Source: Nocardia tengchongensis (GTDB lineage: Bacteria; Actinomycetota; Actinomycetes; Mycobacteriales; Mycobacteriaceae). From it: a DNA stretch of 64,000 bases. The stretch spans positions 4,340,001-4,404,000 of the forward strand of contig NZ_CP074371.1 of the NCBI RefSeq assembly GCF_018362975.1, in the 5' to 3' direction. The notes below the pieces were generated by a model. The model did no database searches and was not told where the DNA came from. It saw only the letters and a list, made by a program, of their open reading frames with translations. Made by a program: the position numbers and the translations under genes. Shown piece after piece: positions 25,970-34,315 of this stretch. Position 1 is the stretch's first letter. Every line of letters begins with the position of its first letter.

Positions 25970-26644
25970 TCAGGGGCGGGGTGGTTCGACGCGGACCAGG
26001 CCGGATTGGAAGGCCAGGACGACGAGTTGGGCTCGGTTTTGGACGCCTAGTTTGGACATGGCTCGTTGGACGTGGGTGCGGATTGTGAGGGGGCTGACGT
26101 ACATTTTTTCAGCGATTTCCTCGTTGGAGAGGCCTTCGGCGACCATGGCGACGACCTCGCGTTCGCGGGCGGTGAGGACGTCGAGGGAATCGGCGGCGCT
26201 GATGCGGCTTTCGGGGCGGGAGAGGTAGCGGGCGATCAAGGTGCGGGTGGCGGTGGGGGAGAGCAGGGCGTCGCCGGCGGCTACCGCGCGGATGGAGCGG
26301 AGCAGTTCTTCGGGGCCTACGTCCTTGCCGAGGAAGCCGCTGGCTCCGGCGCGAAGGGCCTGGGCCACATACTCATCGAGTTCGAAGGTGGTGAGGATCA
26401 TGACTCGGGTGTCGTGCAGGGCGGGATCGGCGCAGATCTCCTGGGTGGCGGTGAGGCCGTCGACGCCGGGCATACGGATATCCATGACCACGACGTCGGG
26501 GGTGGTGGCCTGTGCGAGTTCGACCGCCTCCCGGCCGTTTCCGGCGATACCGACCACCTCCATGTCCTCGGCCGAATCGATCAGGAGCCGGAAGGTGCCG
26601 GCCAGCAGGGCTTGGTCGTCGGCGAGCAGTACCCGGATGGTCAT
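25970..26644 (-). CDS. NarL/LuxR-family response regulator
   Basis: The 224-residue product has a receiver domain with phosphoacceptor Asp55 (VVVMDIRMPG), Thr in ILTTFE and Lys in LGKD, and a C-terminal LuxR helix-turn-helix (LTAREREVVAMVAEGLSNEEIAEKMYVSPLTIRTHV). Its start overlaps the histidine-kinase stop (ATGA), so the two form a two-component system. The targets are unknown; the upstream MMPL exporter on the same strand is a candidate. Confidence 0.95.
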   Translation of the reverse strand: MTIRVLLADDQALLAGTFRLLIDSAEDMEVVGIAGNGREAVELAQATTPDVVVMDIRMPGVDGLTATQEICADPALHDTRVMILTTFELDEYVAQALRAGASGFLGKDVGPEELLRSIRAVAAGDALLSPTATRTLIARYLSRPESRISAADSLDVLTAREREVVAMVAEGLSNEEIAEKMYVSPLTIRTHVQRAMSKLGVQNRAQLVVLAFQSGLVRVEPPRP

Positions 26645-27876
26645 GGCGTCTTGTCCTCGTCGTCGGGGGATTGCGGGGGCTCGAGGGGGAGTTCGGTGGT
26701 GACTTCGAAACCGCCGCCGGGCTTGCGGCCGGCGCGCAGGTGACCGCCGACGGAGACGGCGCGCTCGTTCATGCCGATCAGGCCGTACCCTTGCCCGGCC
26801 GAATCCTGGTCGCCGCGAACAGTTTCGGTAGCGTCACCGCCGTCGTCGCTGATGCTGATGGTCAGCAGCAGACGCGAGTAGACCAGTCGCACATTCGCGG
26901 TCGCGGTGCTCGCGTGCTTGGTGACATTGGTGAGCGCCTCCTGGATGATCCGGTACGCCGTCAGATCCGCGCCCGGCGAGAGCGGTCGCGGCACCCCGGT
27001 GATCGACAGCGACAGGGTCAAGCCGGTCCGCTCGAAAGAGGTGAGCAGTTCCGAGAGTTGAGCCAGGCCGGGCGTCGGCTCCAGCGGAGCATCGGAATCG
27101 TCTTCACGCAGCAGCCCTACGGTGGCCTTGAGCTCACGCAACGCCGCGGAGGTCGTACCCGCCAGCTCGTCGAGCATCCCCTGCGCCTGATCGGGCTGGC
27201 TCCGCAGCAGGTACGCGGCGGTGGAAGCTTGAGCGTGCGCCAACGCCATGTGATGCGCCACGATGTCGTGCAGTTCCCGCGCGATCCGGACCCGCTCCTC
27301 GCCGACCCGCTGCCGCGCCTCCTCCTCACGGGTCCGTTCGGCCAGCTCCGCGCGTGCGTGCAAGGCGGCCAGATAGTTGCGCCGATTGCGACCGGCCTCG
27401 GCGAACGCGCCCGCCAGCAGGTCCCCGGCGACCAGCGTGATGCGTCCCCCGGTCAGCAGCGGATTGAAGTCGTGTACGAGGGAGGTGATCAACAGCGCGC
27501 CGCCCGCGACGATCGGCGCGAGCTTGGCGGTGCGCGCATCGGGATACCACAGTCCCAACGAGTACATCGCGACGAACGCCGCGCCCGCCGTGAACACCGA
27601 CACCTCGAAACCCAAGGCGCCGATCGCGATACCGCAGGCCGTCGTGATCGCCAGCACCGCCCGCGGAAACTCCCGGCGCCACAACAACGCCAGCGAGGCA
27701 GTCGCCGACAACGCGAACACCCCGGGCGACCACGGCCGCACCACCACCGGGCCCTGCCCGTTGCCGTGATCGATGAACCGGCTCGCGTAGGTGGCGAGCG
27801 CGCACAGCAGAATCGCCACGACCACATCGACCACCCGGCTGTGCCGGCGCGGCCACTGCGACCATTCGGCGGTCAT
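26641..27876 (-). CDS. DesK/NarX-type sensor histidine kinase
   Basis: The product is a 411-residue membrane kinase. About five or six hydrophobic helices occupy the N-terminal 150 residues without a large extracellular loop. The HisKA_3 dimerisation box RIARELHDIVAHHMA comes near residue 200, and an HATPase domain ends in DDGGDAT and GYGLIGMNERA. It phosphorylates the downstream regulator. ATG 27876 has GAGGAG about ten bases upstream; an upstream in-frame ATG at 27903 is possible. The lack of an obvious sensor domain suggests detection of membrane state. Confidence 0.92.
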   Translation of the reverse strand: MTAEWSQWPRRHSRVVDVVVAILLCALATYASRFIDHGNGQGPVVVRPWSPGVFALSATASLALLWRREFPRAVLAITTACGIAIGALGFEVSVFTAGAAFVAMYSLGLWYPDARTAKLAPIVAGGALLITSLVHDFNPLLTGGRITLVAGDLLAGAFAEAGRNRRNYLAALHARAELAERTREEEARQRVGEERVRIARELHDIVAHHMALAHAQASTAAYLLRSQPDQAQGMLDELAGTTSAALRELKATVGLLREDDSDAPLEPTPGLAQLSELLTSFERTGLTLSLSITGVPRPLSPGADLTAYRIIQEALTNVTKHASTATANVRLVYSRLLLTISISDDGGDATETVRGDQDSAGQGYGLIGMNERAVSVGGHLRAGRKPGGGFEVTTELPLEPPQSPDDEDKTP

Positions 27877-27926
27877 CCGCACTCTTCTCCTCGTCGAGAA
27901 CACTAATCGGCAGGTCCCGAAGTGAC

Positions 27927-27971: not shown

Positions 27972-30181
27972 TCAGGCGCGCACGGATTCGAGCTCCCGCT
28001 CCGGTTCCACGGCCTCGTGACGGTTCAAGCTCTCACCCTCCACGTCCACGTTCGGCAGGATCCGCGCCAGCCACCCCGGCAGCCACCACGCCTTGTCGCC
28101 GAGCAGCGCGAGCACCGCCGGCACCAGCGTCATGCGAACGATGAAGGCGTCGAAGAAGACCGCCGCGGCGAGCCCGAGACCCATCATCTTGATCATCGGT
28201 TCACCGCCGCCGATGAATCCGGCGAACACCGCGATCATGATGGCGGCCGCGGCCACCACCACCCGGCCGCTGTGTCGGAATCCGGTGACGATGGCCTCGT
28301 GCGCGGTCTCGCCGTGCGCGAACGCCTCCCGCATCCGGGTGACGAGGAAGACCTCGTAATCCATGGCGAGGCCGAACACCACGCCGATCAGGAAGATCGG
28401 CATCATGCTCATCACCGGACCGGTCTGGTGAACTCCGATCAGGTCGGCCAGCCAACCCCACTGGAAGACCGCCACGATCACACCGAAGGCCGCGCCCACC
28501 GACAGCAGGAATCCGAGGGCCGCCTTGATCGGCACGGCGATCGACCGGAACACGACCATCAGCAGCAGAATCGCGAGCCCGACCACCACGGCCAGATACG
28601 GCAGCAGCGCGTCGGCCATCTTCTGCGAGACATCGATATTCATCGCGGTCGCACCCGTGACCAGCATGGTCGCGCCGGTCGCCGTCTGCAGATCGCTCGC
28701 CTCGCCGCGCAGGGTGTGCACGAGATCCTTGGTCGCGGTGGTCGAGGGACCGGTCGCGGGCACCACGGTGACCATGGCCGCGTCCCCGGCCTGGTTGAAC
28801 ATCGCGGGCGACACCGACACGACTCCCTTGGTCGCGGCCAGGGTGCTGGTCGCCTGTTCGACCGCGGCCCGCGGATCGCTGACGCCCTTGACGTCGAGTG
28901 CGACGGTGAGCGGCCCGTTGAAGCCGGGACCGAAGCCCTCGGCGAGCGCGTCGTAGGCGCGGCGCTGCGTCGTCGACGTCGGCTGTGCCTCGTCACCGGG
29001 CATACCGAGTTCGAGGCTGGTCATCGGCAGCGCGAGCGCACCCATACCGACCAGGCCGATCACCAGCACCGCCACCGGGCGGCGGACGACGAACCGCGCC
29101 CAGCGGGTGCCCATGCCGGGCTTGCCGGCCGGAACCCGGTCGGCCGGCGGGTTGTCCCGACCGTCCCGCGCCTTGCGGGAAGCCTTGGGCAGCACGGCAT
29201 TCTGGAAGAACCCGAGCAACGCGGGCAGCAAGGTCAACGCGATCGTCACCGCGACGGCGACGGTGCCCGCCGCGGCCAACCCCATCTTGGTGAGGGCCGG
29301 AATACCGACCACGGCCAGTCCGGCCAGTGCGATCACCACGGTGAGTCCCGCGAAAACCACCGCGGATCCGGCGGTTCCGACGGCCCGCCGGCGGCTTCGG
29401 CCGCGCTGTAACCCTCGGCGCGTTCGGTGCGGTAGCGCGACACGATGAACAGCGCGTAGTCGATGCCGACCGCGAGCCCGAGCATCATGGCGAGCGTCGT
29501 CGTGGTGGTGGACATCCCGATCGCCACGATCGCGGCGATCCCGACGCCGATCCCGATCAGCGCGGTGATCAGCGGCAACCCGGCCGCCGCGAACGCCCCG
29601 AAGGTGATCATCAGCACGATGGCGGCGATGGCGATGCCGATGGCTTCGGTCGCCCCGGCCATTTCCGGCTTGGCCTGCAGCGCGGACCCGCCGATCTCCA
29701 CCGTGACCCCGGCCGACTCGCCGGTGTGCATCGCGTCGGTCAGCGCTGTCTTCGTCGCATCGGTGAGATTGTCGCTGGAGGCGCCGTAACTCACGGTCGC
29801 GTACGCGGTGCTGCCGTTCTTGCTGACCGCCCCGGTCTGGAACGGGTCGAGCACGCCCTTCACCTGTGCGCCACTCGAGACGTCGGCGACGATCCGCTCC
29901 ACCACCGCCTTGTTGGCGTCGGAACCGATCTGCTGTCCCTCGGGTGCGACGAACACGATCCGGGCTTGCGCCCCATCGGATTTGGTGCCCGGGAAACGCT
30001 GTTCCAGCAGGTCGAACGCCTGCTGGGACTCGGTGCCCGGAATCGAGAAGGTGTCCGGCGGCGCCGGCGGCGCGCTGGCGGCCCCGATCGCCAGCGCGGC
30101 CAGCAGACCCACCCAGAGCAGCACGACGAGCCGCCGCTTCTCGAACGCGAACCGGCCGACCCGGTACAGGAGTTTCGCCAT
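27972..30181 (-). pseudogene. MMPL/RND-family transporter, one-base frameshift
   Basis: Restoring one base gives a 736-residue MMPL-family exporter. It has an N-terminal helix (RLVVLLWVGLLAALAIG), an extracellular domain, a first five-helix block with GLAVGIDYALFIVSRYR, a second extracellular domain and a second block with FGLAMDYEVFLVTRMREA, both RND hallmarks. The frame breaks after EGYSAAEAAG near 29382-29393 and resumes with RAVGTAGSAVVFAGLTVV. The 2210-base length is one short of a multiple of three. Everything else is undamaged, so a missed base is likelier than a dead gene. It diverges from a TetR gene, the usual regulator arrangement for such exporters of lipids or drugs. Confidence 0.88.
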
Positions 30182-30369
30182 ACGGCCATGCTCGTTGGAG
30201 GCCTCTGTAGTCGGCATCGTCCACGTGAAGGCCGTCTCGCGTACTGCGAACGCAGTACCCGCGCGCTCCCGGTACTCGATCCGCAGCACTTTCGCCGGGT
30301 CCCGGCGGCCCCCAACGTCACCGCTCCGACGTGCTCACATGATGTGTGTGACGCTGATGTCAGGATCGA

Positions 30370-31019: not shown

Positions 31020-31583
31020 TCAGCGGTGCGCGACCCGCTCGACCGCTGCCTCGGCCCTCGCCTCGAGTCGAAGGACCGCGCCCTCTTCCCTCCGGCGCTC
31101 TACCGGGATGTCCGCCGGTAGTTCCGTGCACACCCGGAACAACAGCAAGAACAGACTGTCGATGAGGAACGGGACCGCCAGGAACAGTACGGCCGGCAGT
31201 GCGATCGGCAGGAACAACAGCCATTCGCGGAGACCCGCGCCGGACATGCGGCCGCCGAAACGCACGGCGGCCCACATCATCCAGCGCTGGGGCGCGGAGA
31301 CGCCGCACTCGCGGAGCATGCGGCGGAAGATGCCGTCGGCGTCGGATCGGTCGACCGGGGCATGCTCGCACAGGTAGTCGTGGACGATCGCGGCTCGGGT
31401 GTAGGCGCCGTAGCGGGGGATCAGCCAGATCAAAGGCCTTGGGACCGAGGCGAAGTCGGTCAGGAAGCCGACCGGGACGTGGAAGACGTCGGTGGCCGCC
31501 CGGTAGGTCAGGGGTGCCTGTAGCCGCCACCTGACCGCGTCGACCTCCTCGACGACGATGGCTTGTTCACCGAGGAACGGCAT
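31020..31583 (-). CDS. DUF1353 protein with C-terminal membrane segment
   Basis: Residues 1-118 match the phage-associated DUF1353 family: VPVGFLTDFASVPRP near residues 37-50 and the AAIVHDYLCE motif at 64-73. Unlike typical DUF1353 proteins of about 120 residues, this one of 187 residues continues with a hydrophobic stretch at about 119-150, long enough for one or two membrane passes, and a charged tail. It follows the LysB-like gene by 36 bases on the same strand. In this context the membrane tail could serve a holin-like purpose, which is inference only. Confidence 0.85.
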   Translation of the reverse strand: MPFLGEQAIVVEEVDAVRWRLQAPLTYRAATDVFHVPVGFLTDFASVPRPLIWLIPRYGAYTRAAIVHDYLCEHAPVDRSDADGIFRRMLRECGVSAPQRWMMWAAVRFGGRMSGAGLREWLLFLPIALPAVLFLAVPFLIDSLFLLLFRVCTELPADIPVERRREEGAVLRLEARAEAAVERVAHR

Positions 31584-31619
31584 CGAATCCTCCTGTGCGG
31601 AGCTCGGTTCGGCCGGTCA

Positions 31620-32339
31620 TCAGGACAGCTCCTGGTTCACGGCGTCGGCGAGCGCCTTGCAGTGGCCCTCGGCCAGGTAGGCGGTGGTGTGCCGGCCATC
31701 GGTGAGATAGCCCTTCATCCAGGCCGCGGCGCCACCCCAGTCCTGCCAGTGGTCGAGCGTCCACCACGGTTGCATGCTGCGGCTCAGAGCCGTGTCGAGC
31801 ATGGTCTGGGCCCAGTGTGCGACCGCCTCGGGCGAACTCAGCGAATAGAACTCGGTCATATCCGCCAAGCTGCGCAAGGGGTTTCCCGCCGGGAGCGCGG
31901 TGATCGGGTCGCCGGGGGCGGCGGCCCACCAGGTAGGTATGCCGGTGTCGCGTTCCCCGGAGATGCCCCAGCCGCCCGGGTCGGCGCCGGCGCAGCGACC
32001 GTGCGGGCGCGACGGGTCGGCGATCAACGCCACCCCGCGCACCTCCAGCTCCGGATGCCGTCCGGCCGAGATCTCGGCGGCGACATCGCCGGCGATCTGC
32101 GCGCCCTGCGAATACCCGCCCAGCAGAACCGGATTCGGGCTCGCGCCGATCGCGCCGAGCAGGGCTTCGCGGCCCGCCGCGCGGCTGTCGGCGTAGGTGC
32201 CGGGGCTGCCGTATTCGGCCGGATAGTCGACGATGCGGGTGGTGAACCGCGCGGGATCGAGGTCGCGCAGGAACTCTTCGCTGATGTTGTCGCCGCCGTG
32301 CGGGCAGAAGGTGCCCGGCATCATCAGAACGTCGATCAT
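31620..32339 (-). CDS. LysB/cutinase-like serine esterase
   Basis: The 239-residue alpha/beta hydrolase resembles mycobacteriophage LysB and PE-PPE/cutinase esterases. It has nucleophile Ser77 in GGYSQGAQ, candidate Asp144 in APGDPI and candidate His217 in GRHTTAY. LysB cleaves the ester bond between mycolic acids and arabinogalactan. No signal peptide is visible, so export would need a phage-like holin or cell lysis. The start ATG 32339 overlaps the GH25 stop (ATGA), tying the two together. A host cutinase is the alternative, but those carry signal peptides. Confidence 0.85.
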   Translation of the reverse strand: MIDVLMMPGTFCPHGGDNISEEFLRDLDPARFTTRIVDYPAEYGSPGTYADSRAAGREALLGAIGASPNPVLLGGYSQGAQIAGDVAAEISAGRHPELEVRGVALIADPSRPHGRCAGADPGGWGISGERDTGIPTWWAAAPGDPITALPAGNPLRSLADMTEFYSLSSPEAVAHWAQTMLDTALSRSMQPWWTLDHWQDWGGAAAWMKGYLTDGRHTTAYLAEGHCKALADAVNQELS

Positions 32340-32983
32340 GCCCGGACTCCGGTGCGCGCGGCGACGATGCCGCAGGCGGCGGCGAACTCGTCGGCGGACA
32401 AGCCGTCGGCGCTGTTCATGTCGCAGGGTCCGAACGGCGGGCAACCCTCGGGCAGCCCTCCGCCCCAGCCGCCCCCGTCGGTGTACTGGTGTGCGACCTG
32501 ACCCGGCAGCTGCGGATCGCGCCCGTATCCCGCCGCGACCACGCGCAGGCCGTCGGGCCGGGTGGGCCACATGGCCGCGAAGTCGGCCGCGTTGGCGTAA
32601 CCGATGACCCGGCGCGGATCACCCAGCCAGTCGGCGACGGCCCAGTAGGCGTGATTCACCCCGTCGGATTGGTCGCCGGCCGGATTGCCGCCCTGCTCGA
32701 CATCGAGCATCACGATCATGCGCGGATGCGGGCCGCCCGCCTCGCTCACCAGGTCGATGCAGGTCTGCACCGTTTCCTGCCAGTTGGGGCGCCAGTAGAA
32801 GTAGACGATGAAGCACGCCAGCCGGCCGGAATCGGCCGCGGCGGTGGCCCATCGATAGTTGTCCGCGAACCGGTCGTCGCGGTAGGTGCCGTCGTTGCTG
32901 CGGAACGACAGGACTTCGTAGGGATAGTCGTCGTCGACCGGTGCCTGAAAAGTGGACACGTCGGCGAACAAGGTGTCTGTCAT
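32336..32983 (-). CDS. GH25-like muramidase (endolysin type)
   Basis: The 215-residue product looks like a glycoside hydrolase 25 lysozyme barrel. It has an N-terminal FADVS with Asp8, and the central MLDVE at residues 92-96 supplies the Asp94-x-Glu96 catalytic pair. The later IGYANAADFAAMW and VAHQYTDG strands also fit the GH25 pattern. The family cleaves peptidoglycan. It has no signal peptide and no obvious wall-binding domain. It is first in a three-gene unit with the LysB-like esterase and the DUF1353 protein, the pairing seen in phages of mycolic-acid bacteria. The GH25 call is by motif reading only. Confidence 0.75.
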   Translation of the reverse strand: MTDTLFADVSTFQAPVDDDYPYEVLSFRSNDGTYRDDRFADNYRWATAAADSGRLACFIVYFYWRPNWQETVQTCIDLVSEAGGPHPRMIVMLDVEQGGNPAGDQSDGVNHAYWAVADWLGDPRRVIGYANAADFAAMWPTRPDGLRVVAAGYGRDPQLPGQVAHQYTDGGGWGGGLPEGCPPFGPCDMNSADGLSADEFAAACGIVAARTGVRA

Positions 32984-33023: not shown

Positions 33024-33045
33024 CGGACTTGAAGGTACAAGTCCG
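33024..33045. promoter_or_regulatory. 8-bp inverted repeat between divergent genes
   Basis: CGGACTTG at 33024-33031 and CAAGTCCG at 33038-33045 form a perfect inverted repeat with a 6-base spacer. It lies 41 bases upstream of the GH25 gene and 110 upstream of the plus-strand lipoprotein gene. Its position fits an operator controlling the lysis-like unit. Confidence 0.55.
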
Positions 33046-33154: not shown

Positions 33155-34315
33155 ATGGTGAGTGTGTCCGCTCGATGGCGCGCCGGCGCGGCGCTCGCAG
33201 TCGCGCTCACCATGGTCGTCAGCGCGTGCGGGACGAACCGGGACAGCGGTTCGAGCCGATCGACGGTCCCTTCCCCGGAAGCCGCCCGGATCACCGGGCT
33301 CGTGCGCGCGAAACTGGCAGAACTCGATCTCACCGCGGCGGTGTACGGCGTCTGGCGCGACAACCGGGAAATCGTCACCGGCGCGGTGGGCGACTCGCCA
33401 CTGGGCGTCCCGGCGACCACCGATATGCGACTGCGGGTAGGTCAGCCGATGGAACCGATGCTGTCCACCGTGCTGTGGCGGCTCGACGAATCCGGTGTGC
33501 TGAAAATGGACGAGCCGATCGCCCGCTGGCTGCCGAATTTCCCGCGCGCCGACCGCATCACTACTCGCATGCTCGCCGACAGCACCTCCGGAATAGCGGA
33601 CTATGTCACCGACCCGGAATTCCTGAAACGATTCGGCGACAACCCATTCCACACCTGGACGGCACAGGAGTTGCTGGACCTGGCCAATGCTCGCCCGCCG
33701 TTGTTCGACCCGGGAACCAGTTTCGCCTACGCCCACAGCGATCTGGTCGTGCTGGGCGAGGTTATGCAGAAGGCATCGGGTAAACCATTGGGCGACTTGA
33801 TCTCCCAGTACATTCTGGACCCGCTCGGAATGTCGAAGAGCTCGGTGGTGCTGACCGCTCGGATCGACGAACCGATCCTGCACGGCTACACCGATGAGCG
33901 AAAGGTCTTCGAGGACGCCACTTTCTGGAATCCGACCGCCTTCCTGCACAGCGGCAACATGAATTCGACCGTCGCCGAGGTCGGCCGCTGGGTCCGTGCC
34001 GTCGGCAAGGGAGAACTGCTCTCCACCGGGCAATTCCAGCAGATGATGGCTCCCTCGACCGCCGGTCTCGGGCCGCTCACCACCGAGAAGTACTTCGCCT
34101 TCGGTATCCCGCACCTGTCCGACTGGCTCTTCATGAACCCGGCCTACGGCGGCTACAACGGAGTCGCCTTCTACGACACCAAGACCGCCACCACCGTGGT
34201 CGTCTACGCGACCCTCGGCCCTGCCGCGGCCGCGGAGAAGAACAACGCCGTCCCCATCGGCGAAGCGATCGCCACCCTCCTGGTGCCCGATCGCCCACCC
34301 CCGCTCCCGCGCTGA
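33155..34315 (+). CDS. Beta-lactamase-fold (serine hydrolase) lipoprotein lacking the catalytic SxxK
   Basis: The 386-residue product begins with a lipoprotein signal ending VVSAC (Cys25). The rest aligns in style with class C beta-lactamase/D-Ala-D-Ala peptidase-like proteins (SGVLKMDEPIARWLPNF, TTRMLADSTSGI, PLGMSKSSVV, FAFGIPHL). At the expected SxxK position the sequence reads Q97-P-M-E100, and the YxN motif is Y191-A-H193, so the acylating serine and the lysine are both missing. It is probably a non-enzymatic envelope protein. It is divergent from the lysis-like genes. Confidence 0.85.
   Translation: MVSVSARWRAGAALAVALTMVVSACGTNRDSGSSRSTVPSPEAARITGLVRAKLAELDLTAAVYGVWRDNREIVTGAVGDSPLGVPATTDMRLRVGQPMEPMLSTVLWRLDESGVLKMDEPIARWLPNFPRADRITTRMLADSTSGIADYVTDPEFLKRFGDNPFHTWTAQELLDLANARPPLFDPGTSFAYAHSDLVVLGEVMQKASGKPLGDLISQYILDPLGMSKSSVVLTARIDEPILHGYTDERKVFEDATFWNPTAFLHSGNMNSTVAEVGRWVRAVGKGELLSTGQFQQMMAPSTAGLGPLTTEKYFAFGIPHLSDWLFMNPAYGGYNGVAFYDTKTATTVVVYATLGPAAAAEKNNAVPIGEAIATLLVPDRPPPLPR

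Follow-up and report, generated by a model that had tools for sequence, protein, structure and literature searches.

Lysin A followed by lysin B is an arrangement known from actinobacteriophage lysis cassettes: in the Gordonia phage NHagos the GH25 part of lysin A overlaps the following LysB gene by 4 bases, and in mycobacteriophage Eponine lysin A stands directly before lysin B. In Salmonella, phage lysis genes are described as having been turned into non-lytic secretion systems (PMC13284979), and the Type 10 secretion systems (chiWXYZ and relatives) are host-reused phage lysis genes with a holin, a signal-less peptidoglycan hydrolase, spanins and cargo. The Salmonella typhoid toxin islet links a phage-type muramidase, TtsA, to the DUF1353 protein TtaP (125 aa). 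In the report on TtaP, its relation to phospholipase A2 (PLA2) was found by HHpred, PLA2 activity was demonstrated and was lost in D85A, and the catalytic residues are given as an H70/D85 dyad with D71; the same study observed no envelope phenotype and found that toxin secretion does not depend on TtaP (PMC11525133, JBC 2024). In mycolate bacteria, endolysins are described as triggers of membrane vesicles (PMC7835258).

Here we describe a three-gene unit of Nocardia tengchongensis which has about an even chance of being a domesticated envelope-opening cassette aimed at three layers, with a membrane-anchored phospholipase in the holin's stead. The trio is a new arrangement of known parts, and no description of a GH25-LysB-DUF1353 trio was found among the titles and abstract openings searched in the open-licence literature. 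It lies in the window (the whole stretch of 64 kb that was analysed) of a source genome, labelled G000, that consists of one contig of 8.0 Mb:

32336-32983, minus strand: gene of the GH25-type muramidase (probable), 215 aa, single catalytic domain
31620-32339, minus strand: gene of the LysB-like esterase (predicted), 239 aa
31020-31583, minus strand: DUF1353 gene, 187 aa; residues ~1-115 form a predicted phospholipase A2-like domain and ~117 onward a hydrophobic C-terminal tail
33032-33037, minus strand: TACCTT block, 48-52 nt upstream of the GH25 start in each of the three trio genomes

The coordinates confirm the tight minus-strand unit proposed in the first-pass annotation, with the four bases ATGA at 32336-32339 common to the GH25 stop and the LysB start, and with a gap of 36 bases between LysB and DUF1353, the latter having an AGGAGG of its own. 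The TACCTT block is a candidate promoter element. An upstream operator, in the form of a perfect inverted repeat around this block (33024-33045), was considered and rejected, being absent in the two relatives described below; 6 perfect inverted repeats of such kind occur within the 64 kb. The lack of signal peptides on the two hydrolases, also noted earlier, was borne out by hydropathy, as neither start is hydrophobic (within the first 40 positions the 19-residue mean reaches at most -0.09 for GH25 and 0.48 for LysB). The GH25-type and DUF1353 proteins each have a single match in G000 (E <= 0.001).

Scanning of nine flanking genes with PHROGs revealed no capsid, integrase or terminase family, in agreement with the original observation of lysis genes lying outside any phage, and no holin or spanin family. 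A prophage remnant around the trio was rejected, the scanned flanks being two-component, MmpL, TetR, beta-lactamase-family and MFS genes. The adjoining beta-lactamase-family gene (33155-34315, plus strand) matches phrog_382, ‘minor tail protein with lysin activity’ (E 2.3e-42), a match that we take to reflect a general enzyme fold; in one relative (G129) this gene stands on the opposite side of the trio. The MmpL-family gene (27972-30289, minus strand) is split across two reading frames in the window, while at L061 and L062 its relatives are open in a single frame throughout the stretch covered, so that it is either a broken gene or a sequence error. Compared with the actinobacteriophage cassettes, the GH25-LysB pair is alike in order and in its short overlap; the trio however lacks a phage, a peptidase part and a classical holin, and its third gene is a DUF1353 gene relocated from elsewhere in the host chromosome.

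The same three-gene order was identified in Nocardia sp. NBC_01503 (G072), with ATGA and TGATG overlaps and identities of 86% (GH25), 85% (LysB) and 75% (DUF1353). Nocardia sp. SYP-A9097 (G129) keeps GH25 (87%) and DUF1353 (73%) with a LysB remnant between them, from which ~200 internal residues have been lost; the first 28 and last few residues remain in frame, and the remnant still ends in TGATG onto DUF1353. Linkage is rare, the complete trio occurring in 2 of 148 genomes and in one more without LysB. Among the places compared (58 for GH25, 102 for DUF1353 and 54 for LysB at >=50%), only G000, G072 and G129 have GH25 and DUF1353 within 20 kb of each other, and only G000 and G072 have LysB within 20 kb of either. 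The linkage in relatives that had been anticipated was thus found in three genomes, one of them with only a LysB remnant, and not elsewhere. A glycosyltransferase-like gene upstream of the G072 trio had matches in 59 of 59 genomes searched; eight such loci had varied neighbours, lacked the trio and offered no clean empty site. The trio is nevertheless real and kept in a small group of relatives.

The 215-aa protein had been called a GH25 muramidase outright. Its phage lysin relatives and catalytic residues uphold this, whereas a GH25 domain was not found, as no Pfam family (PF01183 included) and no NCBIfam family matches it; owing to the missing PF01183 match it is assigned only as GH25-type. 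PF01183 was detected in 1 of 48 homologues (E 0.032), and three phage lysin A relatives likewise lack the match. GH25 enzymes are recognised by a catalytic Asp close to the N-terminus and a D-x-E motif. Residues D8, D94 and E96, which we take to occupy the positions of the GH25 catalytic acids, are invariant in the 48 homologues and fall into the same alignment columns as the D and D-F-E of canonical GH25 proteins (precomputed PF01183 alignment). Endolysin families of PHROGs match the protein (phrog_26250, E 1.2e-25; a second at E 1.2e-4), as do 487 of 50,697 phage records, the best being the endolysin of phage Mendokysei (63.6%); the best 30 of these 487 are all annotated as endolysin or lysin A. 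It shares 37% identity (E 4e-31) with the NHagos ‘lysin A, glycosyl hydrolase domain’. Phage CaiB gp44, which bears that label too and is likewise followed by LysB, is reported to have been placed in GH25 through a match to a solved GH25 lysozyme (PMC9671378). The full profile matched canonical GH25 with 99.4% probability, a value inflated by a shared C-terminal domain, and the catalytic parts matched weakly (E 0.0071, probability 5%; two controls gave 0.065 and 0.27). The identification, resting on motif and relatives, is for this reason supported but not proven. The C-terminal domain PF27131 is absent from the trio protein and present in many of the relatives listed.

Of 148 Nocardia genomes, 38 have a GH25-type match. 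The three trio proteins make up a single clade (100/100) in a 54-row tree, within a 36-row group (87/82) of Nocardia genes plus some viral contigs, apart from which two named phages fall; scanning of the viral_contigs set gave 7 matches. Many species of Mycobacterium carry lysin A-type GH25 genes in a common non-phage neighbourhood (L143-L174, L178-L181), with sulfatase-like, sensor kinase, response regulator and methyltransferase genes, each with 32 members, identified by eye; this is a domestication of its own, perhaps an older one. At L111 (G036), a GH25-type gene lies just upstream of genes that by eye are contractile sheath-, tube- and PAAR-like.

The 239-aa protein matches phrog_102 (E 2.4e-34), and its S77 (within GYSQG), D144 and H217 are invariant in 19 rows, four phage proteins included. 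By this triad and its relation to phage LysB it is predicted to be a LysB-like esterase, as first proposed. Against solved structures, a profile that held phage LysB rows matched cutinase-like proteins first and then 3hc7, ‘Gene 12 protein’ (E 0.0074). In the LysB tree two Gordonia phages fall outside the Nocardia group, Mbo4 sits on a long branch without firm position, and the internal order of the Nocardia group is without resolution. No LysB was found in the genome_contigs scanned, and one weak match was found in the viral_contigs. In 10 of 62 named loci GH25 has a distant cutinase-like gene (26-34% identity to LysB) nearby.

The third protein matches PF07087 (DUF1353; E 2.4e-34, 117.2 bits, cut-off 22.5), which Pfam lists as a family of unknown function. 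Its H68, D69 and D83 have the spacing of H70, D71 and D85 of TtaP, as taken from the publication and not from an alignment, and are invariant in 71 of 71 relatives; across 22 rows, among them 14 phage DUF1353 proteins, neither H68 nor D69 varies and D83 is >=90% conserved. Two DUF1353 profiles searched against solved structures retrieved not one PLA2 chain with E <= 10. Hydropathy windows starting at 117-137 mostly exceed 1.6, with a peak of 2.59 at 123-141, and the tail passes 1.6 in all 71 aligned relatives and in none of eight phage proteins. In six loci of other actinobacteria a tail was seen by eye in five, and no DUF1353-lysin fusion was seen. The protein is predicted to be phospholipase A2-like and membrane-tailed. 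It had been proposed as a candidate holin, but a holin is a small membrane protein without an enzymatic domain, and here the conserved domain accounts for roughly half of the protein or more. Since PLA2 activity is proven for one member of the family, with which these residues are shared, DUF1353 is more probably a membrane-anchored phospholipase A2 than a plain holin, and would in that role be the better third component. The islet of Salmonella is alike in its muramidase-DUF1353 linkage and catalytic spacing; the trio differs in having no toxin genes, an extra LysB for the mycolate layer and a hydrophobic tail on its DUF1353. The lack of an envelope or secretion phenotype for TtaP makes this parallel weaker.

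The reading of DUF1353 as a phage-derived gene to which a membrane segment has been added found no support, since matches occur in 100 of 148 Nocardia genomes (11 of them weak matches only) and the tail is general among the relatives. In Nocardia, DUF1353 is as a rule present in one copy, whose normal place is close to bioB. All 27 other DUF1353 loci that were read have at least one of bioB, DUF2567-like, NUDIX and nadA within 1.5 kb flanks, the gene names having been assigned by reading sequences without HMMs. In G000, G072 and G129, the bioB and DUF2567-like genes keep their usual position, but DUF1353 does not adjoin them (best tblastn E 0.033). The trio copies form a 100/100 clade on a long stem inside the Nocardia group (91/98). 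This tree position and the absence from the bioB region indicate that, as read from these genomes, a resident DUF1353 gene moved in behind the lysins. The bioB-nadA region of other Nocardia (L034-L060) has a predicted membrane-anchored phospholipase near a biotin gene, and biotin shortage is described as leading to vesicles in related genera (PMC7835258); a biotin-DUF1353-vesicle link is speculation.

In phages, DUF1353 lies <=1.5 kb from an annotated endolysin, lysozyme, holin or spanin in 7 of 16 neighbourhoods (Bas80, FNU_1P, AH02, phiPMW, SYP, JD-Fnp2 and IME207). In DMCA and Funu2 it is near an unspecified peptidase (9 of 16 if both are counted), and in seven of the 16 no lysis gene was found. 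These neighbourhoods were hand-picked from 124 records and several of the phages are related, so they are not independent cases. PHROG 1158 labels DUF1353 a ‘tail assembly chaperone’ (E 1.1e-32); this role is doubtful because the catalytic PLA2 residues are kept and seven of the 16 phage copies occur among lysis genes.

Ordinary remodelling of the cell's own envelope, that is, peptidoglycan, mycolate and phospholipid turnover in growth or stress without release or death, is an unlikely explanation of the trio. GH25 relatives are found widely in ordinary chromosomal settings, in conserved synteny within Mycobacterium and, for several Nocardia copies, adjoining non-phage genes, and DUF1353 is itself widespread in Nocardia, all of which would suit such a role. 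However, neither hydrolase has an export signal by hydropathy, and the GH25-LysB pair retains its phage order and overlap.

It had also been suggested that the trio could serve a particle encoded elsewhere. A headless phage-tail locus does exist in the same genome:

~1425-1455 kb of G000 (L112, L116): tail terminator, major tail, tape measure, minor tail and fibre genes

No capsid shell, portal or terminase was found in 20 ORFs scanned with PHROGs, though one fibre-like ORF also matches head fibre and virion structural families. The locus looks like a tailocin; no relevant description of tailocins in Nocardia was found in the open-licence literature. Its major tail protein has matches in 46 of 148 Nocardia genomes (>=63% in 36). 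The trio LysB is nearer to LysBs of this locus in other Nocardia (53-59%) than to those of free phages (41% at best, Lton LysB). Two trio genomes apart, near full-length LysB relatives (50-59%) occur in 47 of 150 Nocardia genomes. Among eight LysB loci of 20 kb each, major tail or tail terminator matches adjoin LysB in five; G038 has weaker adjoining tail matches and its tail protein 18 kb away, while G106 and G115 have an amidase and no tail gene within the 20 kb stretch. With G000 and G072 left out, the tail protein is present in 28 of 45 genomes with the trio-type LysB and in 7 of 101 without (p 3e-12), the two lying within 35 kb in 24 genomes. A lysis or release module for this locus is nevertheless improbable: 17 of the 45 LysB genomes lack the tail protein, and the G000 locus has LysB-like, GH25 and amidase genes of its own, so the trio need not serve it.

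That the trio is a functionless remnant of a phage lysis cassette beside a chance neighbour is equally improbable. Its rarity (3 of 148 genomes) and the internal deletion of LysB in G129 would fit, but all three genes are under purifying selection, with dN/dS of 0.133-0.141 for GH25 (three pairs), 0.136 for LysB (one pair) and 0.133-0.179 for DUF1353 (three pairs), the catalytic residues are intact and the overlaps are kept. From this selection pattern it appears not to be a dead remnant, and together with the linkage in G072 and G129 it marks the trio as more than a chance grouping. Within DUF1353 the domain has a pN/pS of 0.10-0.17 and the tail, which changes faster, one of 0.41-0.55. The core of the first-pass annotation, phage-type lysins packed into one operon with no phage alongside, has stood up, and that interpretation as a whole is partly supported.

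A suicide module causing early lysis upon phage infection is still more improbable, for although phage lysins outside a phage could act in this way and a two-component system (window 25970-27903) lies a few kb off with nothing tying it to the trio, PADLOC assigned no family to any of the three trio proteins, nor to six of seven genes in the flanks. The CARF and SduA models of PADLOC match the flanking response regulator, which we take to reflect its general domains.

In the envelope-opening cassette that we favour, two signal-less phage-type hydrolases would have been joined to a resident membrane-tailed DUF1353. DUF1353, made last, would be anchored in the plasma membrane and act as a phospholipase A2, loosening the membrane so that GH25 and LysB may escape, and so replacing the role of a holin. 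Once outside, GH25 would cut the glycan backbone of the wall and LysB the ester between mycolic acid and arabinogalactan, the mycolate anchor. Such a controlled opening of three layers, in some cells, may lead to release of vesicles or cargo or to cell death. Several of the observations above tell against this reading: the weak catalytic-part match to canonical GH25, the failure of the DUF1353 profiles to retrieve a solved PLA2, the faster change of the DUF1353 tail, the loss of LysB in G129, the rarity of the linkage, the seven phage DUF1353 neighbourhoods with no lysis gene, and the negative phenotypes of TtaP. The endolysin-triggered vesicles are alike in that an endolysin opens a mycolate-bearing envelope, but there it is prophage-borne and DNA damage-responsive, while the trio has no prophage.

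It is possible, though rather doubtful, that the trio represents a mycomembrane counterpart of the Type 10 principle, in which three enzymes would cut one layer apiece and a membrane-anchored host PLA2 would stand in for the holin and let signal-less GH25 and LysB out for on-demand release of vesicles or cargo. The trio resembles Type 10 secretion systems in its host-reused phage lysis genes and signal-less hydrolase, and differs in that no holin or spanin was found in the nine flanking genes and no cargo or dedicated regulator was identified. The trio bears on two questions, the passage of large cargo and vesicles through the thick mycolate envelope and the role of DUF1353 enzymes beside lysins, in phages as well as in the typhoid toxin islet. 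It brings the two together in a single small operon, one gene of which has a natural deletion variant.
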